DNA of 64,000 nucleotides from an uncultured Pelagibacteraceae bacterium (lineage in GTDB: Bacteria; Pseudomonadota; Alphaproteobacteria; Pelagibacterales; Pelagibacteraceae), in NCBI GenBank assembly GCA_902514945.1, contig CABXSO010000002.1:1-64000 (forward strand), read 5' to 3'. The notes beneath the pieces are model-generated. The model worked only from the letters and a program-made list of their open reading frames with translations. It was not told the origin of the DNA and did no database searches. Made by a program: the position numbers and the translations under genes. Positions 33,545 to 45,413 of the stretch are shown in pieces (position 1 is the stretch's first letter; each line of letters begins with the position of its first letter).

Positions 33545-35645
33545 AATTGCTACTATATTACCTTATAAAGAAAATTACACATTTAACAAAGCTCAAGCTG
33601 CCGCAATATGGGTATGTGATTTTTTTAAATTTTCAAAGTTTAAAAATAAAAATTATATTTTTGGAAATACAAAAGGAAAAGATTATCTAACAAAAAATTA
33701 TGTTAATATTAATATTAATAATCTTAAATCAAAATTTTCAAGTTCCACACACGAGTATTGTAAAAATTTCATAAAAAGAACAGAAAACGTATATTTTGAT
33801 ATTATAGAAATACATAATAGACCTCTAGTTTTTAATATCTTAAAAAAGGAAATAAATACGAAATACATTGTGTACTTTCATAATGATCCGCTATCAATGA
33901 ATGGATCAAAAACTATTAATGAAAGATTAAGACTATTAGATGAAATTGATAAAATTATTTTTGTGAGCAAATGGGTGCAAAACCGATTTTTCTTAAATCT
34001 AGATAAGAAACTAATTAACAAAACAGAAGTAGTTTATCCCAGTATCCATAAAGAAAAAAAGATTTTTAAAAAAGAAAAAAAAATTACTTTTGTAGGAAAA
34101 TTAAATCAATCCAAAGGTTACGATATTTATAAGGATGCAGTAATTAAAATTTTAGATGAGTTCAATAACTGGAAAGCCTACTCCATAGGTGATGAAAGCA
34201 GAAGTAGACCAATGATAAATCATAAAAATCATATAGAATTAGGTTTTTTAAAACATAAAAAAGTTTTAGAATTTTTGAATAAATCAGAAATAGCAGTAGT
34301 TCCATCTAGATGGGAAGAGCCATTTGGTAGAACAGCGTTAGAATCCTCATCGCGGGCATGCGCAACTATTATTTCAAATAAGGGTGGCCTACCAGAAACC
34401 ACTGATTATTGCGTTACATTAAAAAAATTAAACTCACATGAATTATATTTACAAATCAAAAAATTAATCAAGAATGAAAAATTTAGAAAAAAGATTCAAT
34501 ACGATGGTTTTAAAAAAGTTAAACATCTTATTAAAGAAAACTCAAAGTTTATAGACAAAATACGAGAAAACTGTGCGCAAAAATTTAATCTAAACTTTAT
34601 TAGAAATAAATTAAGAATTATAAATATTTACAATACAGGACAAAAACTTAATCATAGATTATACAATATTTCCCTTGGTAAAAAATTCACCAATGGATTT
34701 ATAAGAAATGGTCATGATGTATTAGAAATTAGTGATAGAGATTTTATTAGACAAAATAGAACCTTTTCTTTAAAAAATAGCTCATCAAAATTTCAAGATT
34801 TCTTAACAGAAACTTTTAAAAATTATAATCCTGATTTACTTTTTTTTGGTCATACAAAAAATATTGATTTAGAAACAATTGATTTATTTAGAGCAATAAA
34901 TAATAACATTATAATTTCTCAATGGAATGAGGATCCTATTATGCCAAGTTTAGATTATTCAAAGACAAATATTAGAAATATATCTTATTATGCTAACTTA
35001 GTAGACCATAACTTTATTACAACCGATCCAAGTGTATTTATAAAACAAAATCCAAAAGTTAAAAATTTACATTTTTTCTTTGTTCCTGTTGATAGAAATA
35101 TTGAGTGTTTTGATGTTTATAAATTAAATCCCACAAGAGATATTTTTTACGCTATGAGTCATGGTGTAAATAGAGCCAAGCTTAAAAAAGGTAAAACAGA
35201 TAGTAGAATTAATTTTTTAAATAATTTAATCAAAAGAATTGACGACATCAATTATGATTTTTATGGTTTTGCTAATAAAGAACCCATATGGGGTGACAAT
35301 TTTTATAAAGCTTTAGTAAATTCTAAAATGGGACTAAATCTAAGCAGGGGATTACCTACAAAATACTATTCTAGCAACAGAATTGCTTCTTTAATGGGTA
35401 ATGGGCTTTTAACATTTATTGATAAAAAAACACAAATGTGTGATTTTTTTAATAATAATGAAATCATTTTTTATAATGACATAAATGATTTATCTGAAAA
35501 AATTAAATTTTATAAAAAAAATGAAAAATCTAGAATAAAAATTGCCAGAAATGGTAAGAAAAAATATTTCAAACTTTTTAATGAATTAAAAACCACAAAG
35601 TATATAATTGACAAATCCTTGGGCAATAAGACGAATTTATATTGA
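33528..35645 (+). CDS. Two-module glycosyltransferase (GT4-like N-terminus, CgeB-like C-terminus)
   Basis: N-half: ITFVGKLNQSKGYDIYKDAV, VVPSRWEEPFGRTALESSSRACATIISNKGGLPE. C-half: ALVNSKMGLNLSRGLPTKYYSSNRIASLMGNGLLTFIDKKTQMCDFF. Confidence 0.8.
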   Translation: MSKDLKIATILPYKENYTFNKAQAAAIWVCDFFKFSKFKNKNYIFGNTKGKDYLTKNYVNININNLKSKFSSSTHEYCKNFIKRTENVYFDIIEIHNRPLVFNILKKEINTKYIVYFHNDPLSMNGSKTINERLRLLDEIDKIIFVSKWVQNRFFLNLDKKLINKTEVVYPSIHKEKKIFKKEKKITFVGKLNQSKGYDIYKDAVIKILDEFNNWKAYSIGDESRSRPMINHKNHIELGFLKHKKVLEFLNKSEIAVVPSRWEEPFGRTALESSSRACATIISNKGGLPETTDYCVTLKKLNSHELYLQIKKLIKNEKFRKKIQYDGFKKVKHLIKENSKFIDKIRENCAQKFNLNFIRNKLRIINIYNTGQKLNHRLYNISLGKKFTNGFIRNGHDVLEISDRDFIRQNRTFSLKNSSSKFQDFLTETFKNYNPDLLFFGHTKNIDLETIDLFRAINNNIIISQWNEDPIMPSLDYSKTNIRNISYYANLVDHNFITTDPSVFIKQNPKVKNLHFFFVPVDRNIECFDVYKLNPTRDIFYAMSHGVNRAKLKKGKTDSRINFLNNLIKRIDDINYDFYGFANKEPIWGDNFYKALVNSKMGLNLSRGLPTKYYSSNRIASLMGNGLLTFIDKKTQMCDFFNNNEIIFYNDINDLSEKIKFYKKNEKSRIKIARNGKKKYFKLFNELKTTKYIIDKSLGNKTNLY

Positions 35646-36499
35646 TGAAATTATCAATATTAATACCAACATTTAATAATTTACCTTATTTAAAATTTTT
35701 TCTAAATTCTATAAACAATAATTCCACATTTCATCACGAAGTAATAATTCACGTTAATGATGGTTCTGATGGCACCTTAGAATATGTTACAAACAAAAAT
35801 CTAAAATTTACTCATAGTAAAGAAAATATAGGTTTATGTAGTTCGTTAAATAATGCCTATAAATTGAGTACCTCGGATTTCATATTATATGCTCATGATG
35901 ATATGTACTTCTGTAAAAATTGGGACAAATACCTTATAGATGAAATAAAAAAACAAAGAAACAATTTTTTCTATTTGTCTGGTACAAACGTTTCCACAAG
36001 ATTTGGTTTAATAAATTATGATTGTGGAAGAGACATTGATAATTTTGATGAAAATAAATTTTTGAAATTTTGTACTGATGATACAACCCCTGATTTACAA
36101 AGTTCACATTGGGCCCCTCATCTAATTCATAGAGAGTTATGGAATAAAATTGAGGGTTTTAGTGAAGAATTTAATCCCGGTGATGGATCTGATCCTGATT
36201 TCTGTATGAAATTATGGCTCAATAATGTAAGAGTTTTTAAGGGTATATCTAAATTTAAAGTTTACCATTTTAACTCACTAACAACTAGAAATAATAAAAT
36301 AAAATTAAATAATGGAACCAAAACTTTTTTGCTAAAGTACGGATTTAATCCAAGATTTTTTAGAAAATATTATTTAAAAGGTAACAATTCAATAATACCT
36401 TATAATGGTTCTCTAGATGATCCAAAATTAAATTTTTTAATGTTGTTTGATTTGCTAATCAATAAAGTTAAGTATATTTTTAATAAAATTAAATCTTAA
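35642..36499 (+). CDS. Family 2 glycosyltransferase
   Basis: LSILIPTFNNLPYLKFFLNSI, HVNDGSDGTLEYV, AHDDMYF. Confidence 0.9.
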   Translation: MMKLSILIPTFNNLPYLKFFLNSINNNSTFHHEVIIHVNDGSDGTLEYVTNKNLKFTHSKENIGLCSSLNNAYKLSTSDFILYAHDDMYFCKNWDKYLIDEIKKQRNNFFYLSGTNVSTRFGLINYDCGRDIDNFDENKFLKFCTDDTTPDLQSSHWAPHLIHRELWNKIEGFSEEFNPGDGSDPDFCMKLWLNNVRVFKGISKFKVYHFNSLTTRNNKIKLNNGTKTFLLKYGFNPRFFRKYYLKGNNSIIPYNGSLDDPKLNFLMLFDLLINKVKYIFNKIKS

Positions 36500-36506
36500 T
36501 TTTATT
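36482..36506. terminator. Bidirectional hairpin at glycosyltransferase/integrase convergence
   Basis: AATAAAATTAA-ATC-TTAATTTTATT, a perfect 11-bp stem with 3-nt loop containing both stop codons. Confidence 0.6.
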
Positions 36507-37442
36507 TAACGCATTATTTTTAAATAGATTTGCCTCTTTTATATATCTTCTAACCATCTGGGTTGTTTTGTGACCTGTCATCGCCATTATGCTACGTTCA
36601 TCAGCTCCAGATTCGGCAGCAACAGTTGCAAAACCTGATCTCAAACTATGACCAGCAAAATTTTTATTTTCGATACCTGCTAAGTTCAAATATTCTTTGA
36701 TCAGCAAAACTACAGATTGATCAGTTAATCTTTTGTCAGTGAACGATAAACCTTTAGAAAATCTTCTAAAAATTGGTCCAGATTTAATTTTAGAAATTTC
36801 TAACCATTTTTTAAGATTGACAATTGGACAATAAGTTTCATTAGTGAAGTAGGGTAGTCCTTTAATCATCCCTTCGCCGTATTGATCTGTTTTTGATTTT
36901 TTAATGGTAATTTTGAGCCCCTCAGGTATAAATTCTAAATCATCATAATCAATTGAAATAAGCTCAGTTCGTCTAAATCCACCTCCAAAGCCGACTAAGA
37001 TTATTGACTTATCTCTAAATTTCTTAATATCACCAATTTTTTGTTCATTTATTACATTAATTATTGATTTTAAATGATTGATTAATAGAGGTTTTTTACC
37101 TTTCTGAATACTTCCTTTCACCCTTCTTATTCCCATTAAGTTTTCAACAATGATTGGATGTTTTGTATCTAAATAATGCCCTTTAAGTTTATGAACCATG
37201 CTAATTGATACTAACCGTCTTCTTAAAGTGCTAATTTTGGAATTTTTAGAAAGATTTGTAAGGTATAAAGAAACTATTTTAGGCTCAGAAGGTAAAGAAT
37301 TTAAATTATGTCTAGAACAAAAAGCTGCAAAATCTTTGAAGTCTGATTTATATGCTCTTAAAGTATTATTTGCCTTTGAGTTTTTAAGATTATTAATAGT
37401 TGCCTCATGAAGCAATTTTAGGTCTGTTGTAAGTTCATTCAT
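36489..37442 (-). CDS. Tyrosine recombinase / phage-type integrase
   Basis: Catalytic residues look intact: GGGFRRTELISID (R), GHSLRSGFATVAA (HxxR), MAMTGHKTTQMVRRYIK (H...Y). Confidence 0.93.
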   Translation of the reverse strand: MNELTTDLKLLHEATINNLKNSKANNTLRAYKSDFKDFAAFCSRHNLNSLPSEPKIVSLYLTNLSKNSKISTLRRRLVSISMVHKLKGHYLDTKHPIIVENLMGIRRVKGSIQKGKKPLLINHLKSIINVINEQKIGDIKKFRDKSIILVGFGGGFRRTELISIDYDDLEFIPEGLKITIKKSKTDQYGEGMIKGLPYFTNETYCPIVNLKKWLEISKIKSGPIFRRFSKGLSFTDKRLTDQSVVLLIKEYLNLAGIENKNFAGHSLRSGFATVAAESGADERSIMAMTGHKTTQMVRRYIKEANLFKNNALNKIKI

Positions 37443-37487
37443 ATAATTACTATTGATAACAATTAATTATCATTAGTAATATATTAA

Positions 37488-37700
37488 GTGATTTATAATG
37501 TCAATAGTTTAAATTATAAATTTATGGGTTCAATTGATGGTGAGATTCCAGCTGTGTGGTTTTTGATAAGCTCAATTGGTTTTATTATTTTGAGTTTCAT
37601 TCAATATAGAAATACTGGTAAGAGTATTAATACAATTTTTTTAAGCATAATGGCCATTTTGTTTTTATTTAGCTATTTTATATTGCTTTTTAAAACCTGA
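37488..37700 (+). CDS. Small two-TM protein of unknown function (start may be ATG at 37524)
   Basis: MGSIDGEIPAVWFLISSIGFIILSFIQYRNTGKSINTIFLSIMAILFLFSYFILLFKT; no family recognised. Confidence 0.5.
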   Translation: MIYNVNSLNYKFMGSIDGEIPAVWFLISSIGFIILSFIQYRNTGKSINTIFLSIMAILFLFSYFILLFKT

Positions 37701-37794
37701 TTTATCCCCATTATTCACAAGGAAATGAGAAAAATAATAGAATCACCTAAAAAGTGATACATTTAAAATCAGTATTTGTTAAATTAATTATGAA

Positions 37795-37972
37795 TTAAGG
37801 GGCAACTCTTAACTGGCCGGTTGGAGAAAAGCCGAGAGGTACAATTCCAGGGGGCAGAAAGCTTCACAAAGCATCGCTGAACATGTGGAGCGGGAGGCAT
37901 GGCGGTAGCGCATCAACGACGTGCCAAAACAACTGTTCTTTGCACCCTCAAAAGTGCAAGGAAACAGGGGTT
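37795..37972 (+). ncRNA. Candidate structured RNA (standalone ncRNA or 5' leader of the downstream methyltransferase gene)
   Basis: GC-rich island in very AT-rich surroundings with several helices: TTAAGGG-GCAA-CTCTTAA (37795-37812); CTGG/CCAG with nested CGGTT/AGCCG (37813-37850); GCTT/AAGC (37861-37872); CGCT/AGCG (37875-37892); GGCATG/CGTGCC (37896-37925); CTGTTCTTTGCAC/GTGCAAGGAAACAG (37933-37967), followed by GGGTTTTT. Confidence 0.6.
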
Positions 37973-37980
37973 TTTCACTA

Positions 37981-38256
37981 ATGATACTCAAAGGAACTAA
38001 ATTTCAGTTAAAAGTTTGGAAATATCTTAAAACCATCCCCAAAGGTGAGGTAAAAACCTACAAACAAGTAGCTATTAGCATAAAAAGCCCTAAATCAGCC
38101 CGTGCTGTCGCTAATGCTTGCGCTAAAAACCCATATGCCCCGAAAATACCCTGTCATAGAGTGATTAGATCAGATGGAGCTCTTGGAGGATACTCTGGAA
38201 GAGGTGGAATGAAGCAAAAGCTTAAATTACTTAGATCTGAAAAAACAGCAATTTAG
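37981..38256 (+). CDS. Methylated-DNA--protein-cysteine methyltransferase (Ada C-terminal/AGT domain)
   Basis: FQLKVWKYLKTIPKGEVKTYKQVA and active-site PCHRVIRSDGALGGYSGR. The ORF-track start at 37921 would run into the RNA-like region, so ATG 37981 is preferred. Confidence 0.9.
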   Translation: MILKGTKFQLKVWKYLKTIPKGEVKTYKQVAISIKSPKSARAVANACAKNPYAPKIPCHRVIRSDGALGGYSGRGGMKQKLKLLRSEKTAI

Positions 38257-38718
38257 CCTTATTTTAAGGATTTTTTATGTTAAAAAACTCAGGAAAATCA
38301 ACGTTTTTTGATCTTTTTAATTAATTTGATATAGAATAGTATAATTCACCCTTTAGTTGTACCATATATAAGCCTAAGCTTAAAAGAGACCCCTATTTGG
38401 ACGTTTAAATGCTATATTCAATTAGTGCATCGCTCTAATACCTAACTATATCAACACTTTTAGACTACCCAAAATATTCATGATTTTCTTTTTCCTTATG
38501 CTCAAAAAGTCCCGATTTTAAACGATAATCTAATTTTTTTTTGATTTAGCTCAAAATTTAAGCACTTAAACTAAAGTCAAGTATGTTATATATTTATAAT
38601 ATCCATTTCTATCATATTTTTTGTTAAATATAAAATTTAATAAAAATATAATAATTACAATAGTTTACAATGTATAATTAATGTAATACTTTATATATTA
38701 GTAAATAAATAATACCCA

Positions 38719-39573
38719 TTATTTAATTTTTTTAACTATACTCTCTCTCCTAGAGATATAGATGCCGCTTAATACAATGATAAATAATCCTAAAAAAGTC
38801 CAATTATCTGGGAAATCACTAAAGAAATAATAACCTATGATTATGTTAGTAATGATCTCAAAGTAGCTAAATGGTGCTAATTTAGAGGCATCAGCGTATT
38901 TTAGAGATAATATTAAAAATAAATGACCTAGACAAGCAAAAATCCCTATAGCAGCCATCATAGACCATTGATTTAAAGAAGGCGCAACCCAAACAAATGG
39001 CATTATTGTGGAAACTATCATGGCCCCTACTACACCAGTTAATAATAAAGTTAATAAAGGGTTATCTGAAGTACTTAATTTACGAGTAATAATTAAATAA
39101 AACCCATACATTATTCCAGTTCCAAGAGCTGCTAAACTTGCTGAGTTAATTTCCACAAAACCAGGTCTTATAACTACCAATGAACCTATAAATCCTATAA
39201 TTACAGCAGACCATCTTCTAAAACCCACCTTTTCCCCTAAAAAAATTGGAGAAAAAGCTGTAACAATCAAAGGTGCAACAAAAGCTAAAGTTAATGCTTT
39301 TGCTAATGAAATTACTGAGATTGAATAAAAAAAACAGATATTAGCGGTTAAAAGAATGAGACCTCTAATAAATTGTAATTTTGGTTTATCTGTCCAAACA
39401 AGATTTTCTCTAAAAAAGAAAAACATAATTGGAAGAGTAAATGCAACTGTGAAAAAATACCTTGCCCATGTAATTTGTAAAACAGGAAGGTCTGCACTTA
39501 AATACTTTGCAAATCCGTCCATAATTGGAAGCATTACCCATGCTAAAAGATTGAAAGTTATAGCCTTCATCAA
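38719..39573 (-). CDS. EamA/DMT family permease
   Basis: Ten-TM DMT pattern; WVMLPIMDGFAKYLSADLPVLQITWARYF; FLGEKVGFRRWSAVIIGFIGSLVVIRPG. Confidence 0.9.
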   Translation of the reverse strand: MMKAITFNLLAWVMLPIMDGFAKYLSADLPVLQITWARYFFTVAFTLPIMFFFFRENLVWTDKPKLQFIRGLILLTANICFFYSISVISLAKALTLAFVAPLIVTAFSPIFLGEKVGFRRWSAVIIGFIGSLVVIRPGFVEINSASLAALGTGIMYGFYLIITRKLSTSDNPLLTLLLTGVVGAMIVSTIMPFVWVAPSLNQWSMMAAIGIFACLGHLFLILSLKYADASKLAPFSYFEIITNIIIGYYFFSDFPDNWTFLGLFIIVLSGIYISRRESIVKKIK

Positions 39574-39588
39574 CTTAAAGGATATAGA

Positions 39589-40485
39589 TTAATTAAAGTA
39601 TTTTAAAGCAAAGAATACAACAATTGGAATAGTTATAAAGGACATTAAAGTTGAAACAACTATTGTGCTAGCAACACTATCAACAATTTTTTTTGGTGAA
39701 TACATGGTGCCAACTAAATAGTTTAATATAGCACTGGGCATTGCACTTTGTATAAGTAAAACGCCCGCGGCCAGTCCTGATAGATCAAAATTATAGATCA
39801 AAGTAAATGCTATTAAGGGTCCTATTATTACCCTACATAAGGATAAAATAATTGAGTTTTTCAATGAAAATTTAAATTTAGTAAGAGCAATACCTAATGA
39901 CATTAAAACTAAGAAAATTGTTGCGTATGTTAAAAGGAATGTTGTGTTCTCAAGAAATAAAGGTGTGTCAATTTCAAAATATAAAAAGAAAACAGATATA
40001 ATAATAGCGTACACTGGTGGACTTTTAATTAAAATATCAAAAGAAAAACTTTTTTTTGCTAAAAAAACACCTAACGTAAAATGAAACAAAATTATGACAG
40101 ATGCTATAGCAGAAGCAACACCAAGACCCTGAGTACCATATGCAAAAAGACAAATTGGAACACCCATATTTCCTGTATTTGGTAGAATTAATGGAGGAAG
40201 CTCCATGCTTAAATCTTTTTTAAGAAAAAAAAGAAGAAAAAGCCCAACAACTGCAAAACCAGCAATCATTATTATAGCATAAATAAAATAATGAATAAAA
40301 ACACTTAGAGTAATCCCTGTTGTTGTTACTGTATAAAAAATCATTGCTGGTGTACCAATGTTACCAGCAAAATTTGTTATAAAATTAGTATCGAATTTAG
40401 GGTTTTTCTTACCAAGATAATAACCAACGCCAATAACAAAAAAAACAGGAAAAATAACTTCAAAAATTTTAATATAAATTTCCAT
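39589..40485 (-). CDS. AEC (auxin efflux carrier) family transporter
   Basis: FPVFFVIGVGYYLGKK, LPNTGNMGVPICLFAYGTQGLGVASA. Confidence 0.9.
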   Translation of the reverse strand: MEIYIKIFEVIFPVFFVIGVGYYLGKKNPKFDTNFITNFAGNIGTPAMIFYTVTTTGITLSVFIHYFIYAIIMIAGFAVVGLFLLFFLKKDLSMELPPLILPNTGNMGVPICLFAYGTQGLGVASAIASVIILFHFTLGVFLAKKSFSFDILIKSPPVYAIIISVFFLYFEIDTPLFLENTTFLLTYATIFLVLMSLGIALTKFKFSLKNSIILSLCRVIIGPLIAFTLIYNFDLSGLAAGVLLIQSAMPSAILNYLVGTMYSPKKIVDSVASTIVVSTLMSFITIPIVVFFALKYFN

Positions 40486-43965: not shown

Positions 43966-44026
43966 TGCCGATTTGTACCTATTGCGGGCTTACAGCTAAA
44001 GAGGAAATCATCATACAAACTCGGTA
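43966..44026 (+). promoter_or_regulatory. SAM-II-like riboswitch aptamer (first of tandem)
   Basis: GATTTGTACCTATTGCGGGCTTACAGCTAAAGAGG resembles the SAM-II core (GAUUU...ACC...UUGC...GCUAAA). Upstream of metY. An alternative pairing CCGA-TTTGTA / TACAAA-CTCGG is also present. Confidence 0.65.
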
Positions 44027-44028
44027 GG

Positions 44029-44082
44029 CATTTGAACTATATTGTGCGCCTTGATTAAAGCTAAAGCACTAAAAAAGGAGTA
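44029..44082 (+). promoter_or_regulatory. SAM-V-like riboswitch overlapping the metY ribosome-binding site (second of tandem)
   Basis: GCATTTGAACTATATTGTGCGCCTTGATTAAAGCTAAAGCACTAAAAAAGGAG. CCTT can pair with AAGG of the SD; GCTAAAG core; ATG at 44085. Confidence 0.75.
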
Positions 44083-44084
44083 AA

Positions 44085-45413
44085 ATGAGTAAAAAAAGAA
44101 ATAATCCTGAAACCATTGCCATACATGGTGGTGATTACAGAAGCGACCCAGCAACTAATGCTGTTGCTGTGCCAATATATAGAACAACATCATATCAATT
44201 TCAAAGCACAGAGCATGCAGCAAATTTATTCGCATTAAAGGAATTTGGTAATATCTACACTAGGATTATGAATCCCACTAATGATGTTTTAGAAAAAAGA
44301 ATTGCAGCATTGGAAGGTGGATTATCTTGCGTAACAGTTTCATCTGGACAAACAGCTTCAAGTTTTGCAGTTCTAAATATTGCTCAATCCGGTGATAATA
44401 TTGTAAGTTCTACGGATCTTTATGGTGGAACAGTCTCATTATTTACACATACGTTGAGTAAACTTGGTATTGAAATAAGATATGCAGATCCAAGTGATCC
44501 TAAAAACTTTGAAAAAGCAATAGATGATAAGACCAGAGCTTTTTATGGTGAAACATTACCTAATCCATATTTAAGAGTGTTCCCTATCAAGGAAGTTTCT
44601 GATATTGGAAGAAAATACAATATTCCACTGATAATGGATAATACTGCTGCCCCAGTAATATGCAAACCAATAGAACACGGAGCAGCTGTTGTTATACATT
44701 CACTAACAAAATATATTGGTGGACATGGAACTGCTGTTGCCGGGAGCATAGTTGATAGCGGTAACTTTGACTGGACTGCAGATCCTAAAAGACAACCTTT
44801 ATTTAATGAACCTGATGCAAGTTATGGAGGTGTAGTTTGGGGAAAAGCTGTACCAGAGTTGACAGGAGCTAATGTACCTTTTGCAGTCAGAGCAAGAGTT
44901 TGTTTACTTAGAGATTTAGGTTCAGCTTTAGCACCAGATAATGCTTTTGCAATAATTCAAGGCCTTGAAACAGTGGCTCTAAGAATGAAACAGCATTGTG
45001 AAAATGCTGAAAAAGCAGTTAATTTCTTAAAGAAACACAAAGAAGTTACTAAAGTTATCTATTCAACAGAACACGAGAGGAAAATTGCTGATAGAGCTAA
45101 ACAATATCTAAAAGGTGGAAATGGACCAATGATTGGTATTGAACTCAAAGGTGGCATTGAGGCTGGAAAAAAATTTATTGAGTCTTTAAAAATGTTCTAT
45201 CATGTAGCTAATATTGGTGATGCAAGAAGTTTAGCTATACATCCTGCTAGTACTACTCATAGTCAATTAAATGAGAAAGAGTTAGCAGCATCAGGTGTGA
45301 CTCAAAGTTATGTTAGACTATGTATAGGTATTGAGCACATTGATGATATTATTGATGACTTAGATCAAGCGTTAAACAAATCCTCCAAAGGAAATTTAAA
45401 AGCTGTTAGTTAA
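44085..45413 (+). CDS. metY: O-acetylhomoserine aminocarboxypropyltransferase / Cys-Met metabolism PLP enzyme
   Basis: ETIAIHGGDYRSDPATNAVAVPIYRTTSYQF, VVIHSLTKYIGGHGTAVAGSIVDSG (PLP Lys), long MetY-type insert. Confidence 0.95.
   Translation: MSKKRNNPETIAIHGGDYRSDPATNAVAVPIYRTTSYQFQSTEHAANLFALKEFGNIYTRIMNPTNDVLEKRIAALEGGLSCVTVSSGQTASSFAVLNIAQSGDNIVSSTDLYGGTVSLFTHTLSKLGIEIRYADPSDPKNFEKAIDDKTRAFYGETLPNPYLRVFPIKEVSDIGRKYNIPLIMDNTAAPVICKPIEHGAAVVIHSLTKYIGGHGTAVAGSIVDSGNFDWTADPKRQPLFNEPDASYGGVVWGKAVPELTGANVPFAVRARVCLLRDLGSALAPDNAFAIIQGLETVALRMKQHCENAEKAVNFLKKHKEVTKVIYSTEHERKIADRAKQYLKGGNGPMIGIELKGGIEAGKKFIESLKMFYHVANIGDARSLAIHPASTTHSQLNEKELAASGVTQSYVRLCIGIEHIDDIIDDLDQALNKSSKGNLKAVS

Follow-up and report, generated by a model that had tools for sequence, protein, structure and literature searches.

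The IMES-2 motif was reportedly described in 2009 from marine metagenomes and is said to have no known function. We searched the open literature, a search that lay apart from the original 2009 descriptions, and retrieved nothing on what IMES-2 does. Several better characterised RNAs share individual properties with it. In the retroviral dimerisation site and in the L2-L3 contact of purine riboswitches, two hairpin loops are joined by five to six Watson-Crick pairs, and the retroviral loop is palindromic. At tRNA and tmRNA genes that serve as integration sites, a foreign version replaces the 3' half of the RNA gene and the gene stays functional. 6S RNA is a single-copy, standalone RNA of ~190 nt.

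Here we describe an IMES-2 locus in a 64,000-nt stretch of DNA (the window; contig CABXSO010000002.1) from an uncultured Pelagibacteraceae bacterium, together with its homologs in related genomes. This copy agrees with the Rfam entry in its full-length match over 141 model positions, in its four hairpins and in the type "Gene". To the entry our analysis adds the host lineage, the copy number, the loci and a 3' hairpin, and what is new beyond it is a predicted kissing loop, a private upstream element, a history of loss and, above all, an apparent in-place exchange of the 3' half.

Results

The island under study is the GC-richest place in the window. Its GC content over 140 nt is 52.9%, compared with 28% for the window, and this value was matched in just 8 of 12,772 sampled 140-nt segments, every one of which overlapped the island. 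Folding of the 193-nt strand gave -66.4 kcal/mol (z = -3.7), and none of 200 shuffles was equally stable. An earlier sequence-only reading had singled out this island as GC-rich and as a structured RNA; the first claim is borne out, and the second is strongly supported by the Rfam match and by covariation. The island is real, and only its proposed start at 37795 has to be corrected, since the RNA match begins at 37788. Infernal run against all of Rfam returned a single match at the island, to IMES-2 (RF02035), at 37788–37927 on the forward strand, with 139.6 bits (E 4.3e-36, gathering threshold 54.7 bits) and covering model positions 1–141 of 141. The models for 6S RNA (RF00013) and alphaproteobacterial tmRNA (RF01849) did not match the island. 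By its covariance-model match the island is a copy of the known family IMES-2 and not a new class of RNA, and we consider its identity settled. The sequence-only reading had therefore rightly preferred a functional RNA, but the family to which it found no match was one already known. Elsewhere in the window, a SAM-V riboswitch (73.1 bits) was found at 44017–44083, directly before a 442-aa protein (44085–45413) that reads like an O-acetylhomoserine sulfhydrylase, which we take to be the expected arrangement of SAM-V in SAR11.

The RNA is composed of a 5' domain with two hairpins and an exchangeable 3' domain with two more, all on the forward strand. P1 (37795–37812) carries the GCAA tetraloop, of the GNRA type, that had been recognised from the sequence; all its cells were paired in an alignment of 45 diverse copies, and 4 of its 7 pairs showed double changes. 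P2 (37813–37857), which contains an internal loop, was 95–96% paired, with double changes in 12 of 15 pairs. P3 (37861–37891) forms the first half of the 3' domain and showed double changes in 8 of 8 pairs, and P4 (37896–37925), its second half, was 87% paired, with double changes in 7 of 9. Over the whole alignment, standard pairs occupied 93.4% of cells. The covariation that had been proposed as a check on homologous loci was present, with double changes in 33 of 44 pairs; in the shuffle control 0 of 500 scored as high on all measures, and sliding the structure by one column collapsed the pairing. Compensatory changes and length variation exclude protein coding through the island, which had been considered as another reading of it. 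Within the P4 stem, alignment columns 125 and 144 never formed a standard pair in the 45 sequences and were, as judged by eye, mostly G-A or A-G, which suggests a conserved non-canonical pair.

P3 and P4 carry loops that can pair with each other base by base. The P3 strand (37874–37878, forward) reads UCGCU in the window copy and GCGCU in the commonest form, and the P4 strand (37907–37911, forward) reads AGCGC. Both variable positions were paired in all 158 distinct copies, compared with a shuffled maximum of 136, and when the loop columns were left out of tree building, at least seven changes of the loop pair were required, always concerted. The 45 diverse copies show six loop combinations, palindromic ones and non-palindromic ones alike. 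Four of the five kissing pairs are standard in the window copy, in which U37874 faces C37911; a U-A pair at the equivalent of these two positions occurs in 2 of the 158 copies (L154 and L180), which are related to the window's U-facing-C group. As judged from these concerted changes, the P3 and P4 loops form a predicted kissing-loop pseudoknot, either within one molecule or between two. The structure line of cmscan shows no P3-P4 pairing, but cmscan prints no pseudoknots, and the pairing may be noted elsewhere in Rfam. The commonest IMES-2 loop, AGCGCU, is palindromic like that of the retroviral dimerisation site. In contrast to dimerisation-type kissing RNAs, IMES-2 also has non-palindromic variants, which show P3 pairing with P4, in cis or in trans.

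A conserved element, here CACCTAAAAAGTGATA and in the family CAAcyAnAAAGTGATA, lies upstream of the RNA (37744–37759, forward) at the position of a -35 box and its upstream extension. Its GnGAT core was present in 88 of 88 distinct upstream sequences, at a near-fixed distance (4-nt range) and in every genomic context, and a weak consensus ~17 nt past the element marks a putative, approximate -10 region (37775–37784, forward). Among the 26 genomes scanned the element was essentially private to IMES-2, and it was absent from the tRNA promoters of the window. A wider regulon was considered and rejected, the remaining matches lying in or before unrelated genes. Rare other matches in L118, L115 and L120 are situated within coding sequence or precede a LacI-type regulator, and are probably due to chance. 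The 3' end is occupied by P5, a predicted intrinsic terminator (37933–37975, forward) identified by folding; its 13-bp hairpin with one bulge (37933–37967), followed by GGGG and five T, is as the sequence-only reading had described it. A hairpin and T-run follow the RNA in 169 of 207 homologous loci, with no clear T-run in about a fifth. With promoter, ends and terminator all being predictions, IMES-2 appears to be an independent transcription unit, with a promoter private to it and an intrinsic terminator at its end. In g2-type loci we also saw by eye the sequence TTATCCACA upstream, which raised the idea of a DnaA box or replication origin.

Four genomic settings of IMES-2 were identified. 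In genus g1 it lies between a tyrosine recombinase and ogt, represented in the window by a recombinase at 36489–37442 on the reverse strand (PF00589, E 4.6e-19) and by a 91-aa O6-methylguanine-DNA methyltransferase domain at 37981–38256 on the forward strand (PF01035, E 4.9e-32). Both neighbours lie outside the RNA, and the Pfam matches confirm that an integrase stands beside the island and that the ATG at 37981 opens the methyltransferase reading frame. In most other genera IMES-2 is located between mnmA and an opposite-strand membrane protein, in g9 between an SNase-like gene and an opposite-strand SRAP gene, and in g7 between rmuC and a gene that is called SelO-like from reading its sequence only. 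The upstream element or a close variant precedes the RNA in all four settings. Because the contexts vary, while the upstream element is kept in all of them and the 3' hairpin with T-run in most loci, a separately transcribed RNA is favoured and a general role as leader of ogt is ruled out; of the two readings offered earlier, the standalone RNA with a predicted end at a hairpin and U-tract is the one supported. The Rfam type, "Gene" and not cis-regulatory, fits this independence from neighbours, as the marine origin of the motif fits a SAR11 host. The suggested link to the integrase is not supported, the recombinase-ogt pair being kept in relatives without the RNA and the RNA being carried by other genera without the recombinase.

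A probable membrane ORF of 70 aa (37488–37700, cluster C7) is situated between the recombinase and the RNA; it matches no Pfam family and is conserved in part of g1, including where the RNA is absent. Across the window the cumulative GC skew reaches its maximum at 36–38 kb and then falls, and genes converge there (34000–40000). The skew peak and the tyrosine recombinase could reflect a replication terminus, or just local gene orientation.

Of 147 genomes from the window's family, 98 carried IMES-2, and so did 108 of 247 from its order, always as exactly one copy. Sampling across the class, 385 genomes in all, turned up 3 carriers, all SAR11. Among the Alphaproteobacteria tested, IMES-2 occurs only in SAR11, as a single-copy gene with a patchy pattern of loss; the named carrier genomes are Pelagibacteraceae (SAR11) single-cell and metagenome assemblies. 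A model built from the 45 diverse copies found nothing credible in the near-complete genomes lacking IMES-2. Three weak matches to a diverged IMES-2 were returned, the strongest of which lies across the beginning of rplQ and seems fortuitous. In the UvrA tree the deepest branches (g7 and g9) carry IMES-2, and the absences need at least four losses or gains on well-supported branches, a count that is approximate as it comes from one gene. This pattern points to an RNA that is probably ancient in the family and was lost several times. Some relatives carry a clean empty site and are natural knock-outs: in G003, whose UvrA is 98% identical to that of the window, a small upstream ORF is followed directly by ogt, and promoter, RNA and terminator are all missing. 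Repeated loss shows the RNA to be dispensable and makes any core housekeeping role less likely.

Carriage by viruses was also considered. Five viral contigs with the 18-base 5' motif showed no IMES-2 match, and the same was true of 5'-motif hits in SAR116, Smithellaceae, Negativicutes and a cyanobacterium. Patterns for the 3' half, the terminator and the downstream region had no match in viral contigs or phage records.

The two halves of the RNA differ in their conservation within genera. The minimum identity was 92% for the 5' half and 51% for the 3' half in g4, and 82% and 50%, respectively, in g2; the low values for the 3' half arise because a second class of 3' half exists. This class II, recognised by the motif CGAAGGUAGnnCUUCAACAGCG or a near variant, comprises a divergent P3-P4, often with the terminator, and was found in seven genomes belonging to g2, g3, g4, g6 and g10. 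An eighth carrier in the named set is L170, and the window copy belongs to the common class I. In L080 (g4), for example, the 5' half is 97% identical to its own genus and the 3' half is 91% identical to that of L077 of g2. On the mnmA tree, class II needs seven changes for seven genomes, each on its own branch, and a single clade was rejected (p-AU 4e-56). With the 3' half alone, class II was accepted as one clade and g4, g2, g3 and g6 were rejected as clades, whereas with the 5' half alone the genera were accepted and class II was rejected (p 0.024).

The C2 gene downstream is native in five of the seven class II loci, and for this reason contamination or simple chimeras fail as an explanation. 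L075 has kept its native terminator, which places the switch inside the RNA. Past the terminator, class II loci contain additional DNA, of which L076 (g3) and L077 (g2) have ~60 bp in common, with a 19-base core absent from all other fetched loci. Near class II copies, these draft genomes yielded neither an integrase nor an intact element, and no class I 3' half that had been displaced. In L076 a GC-rich region with a strong hairpin (CGTCCGCTTCCGCGGACTCGG) and no Rfam match is located at 2714–2830, ~110 bp past the class II copy, and the rest of the contig lacks the usual membrane-protein neighbour. The conflict between the trees indicates horizontal exchange, across genera and in place, of half an RNA gene, its 3' domain; the 5' half and the genes on either side are native. 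This pattern would result from recombination with its anchor in the conserved 5' half, or from integrative elements that target IMES-2 and leave remnants there. SAR11 bacteria are thought to recombine often, so the exchange could be neutral.

Discussion

The best explanation as a whole, and one that we hold to be probable, is that IMES-2 is a free-standing two-domain RNA with a kissing loop and an exchanged 3' domain, acting in trans. Its 5' domain (P1 and P2) would be constant and serve a common partner, and its 3' domain (P3 and P4) would be exchangeable and set specificity, a role that the exchange pattern alone suggests. IMES-2 would act as a compact, structured RNA that binds protein, not as an antisense RNA; we give roughly even chances to such a protein-binding fold with a constant 5' and an exchangeable 3' domain. 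Once the loops pair, the alignment leaves no long conserved single-stranded stretch. As conserved unpaired bases are few and mostly used by the kissing loop, a protein-binding fold would be expected rather than an antisense RNA.

The alternative that IMES-2 is a trans-acting antisense sRNA, repressing mRNAs by base pairing with the aid of a chaperone, would agree with a free-standing gene of ~190 nt with its own predicted promoter and a 3' hairpin with a U-tract. As a rule, the seed of an sRNA is conserved and left single-stranded. In IMES-2 the conserved unpaired bases sit in the kissing loop or in very short joints, and we regard this alternative as distinctly unlikely. Substitution for a SAR11 housekeeping RNA, 6S RNA or tmRNA, seems improbable. 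It is invited by the Rfam 6S model, which finds nothing in 30 of 30 Pelagibacteraceae genomes yet finds the Caulobacter RNA; 6S RNA may be missing from SAR11, or present in a form that cannot be recognised. However, 6S RNA goes undetected with and without IMES-2 alike, and tmRNA was detected in 13 of 13 genomes regardless of IMES-2, with only a match below cut-off in the window's incomplete genome. IMES-2 resembles 6S RNA in being single-copy, standalone and ~190 nt long, but it differs in secondary structure, without the long bulged helix, and it is repeatedly lost. Hardly credible is the proposal, made in the sequence-only reading, of a cis-regulatory leader (riboswitch or thermosensor) of the methyltransferase gene. 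In g1 the ogt ATG lies ~10 nt past the terminator hairpin, the GGGG could be a ribosome-binding site, and read-through could add to ogt expression. Against this, ogt is the neighbour only in g1 and is present without the RNA in close relatives; in other genera the RNA precedes rmuC or a convergent gene (on the mnmA side, or at SNase-like/SRAP), so that in most of them the downstream gene faces it. For the IMES-2 family as a whole the leader reading is already refuted.

Other explanations concern the class II pattern. It is highly improbable that chimerism in single-cell or metagenome assemblies produced it as an artefact: most class II genomes are indeed draft assemblies, some with 3–8% contamination, but a single contig holds mnmA, RNA and downstream gene, the genes on both sides are native in the five loci noted above, the switch point is common to seven genomes, and class II copies still fold and have the kissing pair intact. 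An unlikely alternative is that IMES-2 is the integration site of a mobile element that brings a replacement 3' half, class II copies being its scars. The exchange runs from the P2-P3 joint onwards and includes the 3' end, and the extra DNA past class II terminators, including the stretch common to L076 and L077, would be accounted for. The parallel with tRNA and tmRNA integration sites is the replacement of the 3' half by a foreign version in a gene that stays functional. The differences are that we saw no integrase or intact element, nor a displaced class I 3' half, and that the replaced part is about half divergent from the native one; the 3'-half patterns searched occurred in no viral contig or phage record, and the native terminator of L075 means that ordinary recombination also suffices. 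Returning to the two-domain RNA acting in trans, we put forward only tentatively, at well below even likelihood, that the 3' kissing-hairpin module is a specificity cassette under balancing or conflict-driven selection (from phages or rival strains, for example), swapped between SAR11 genera at a fixed locus, with the 5' module and neighbours inherited vertically.

An orphan from marine metagenomes since 2009, IMES-2 is now placed in SAR11, which is among the ocean's most abundant bacteria. Its locus, likely ends, predicted pseudoknot and empty-site relatives make its function testable. Away from tRNA-type integration sites, it would be unusual for half a non-coding RNA gene to be exchanged horizontally in place, and the pattern points to either a module that sets specificity or an integration site so far unrecognised.
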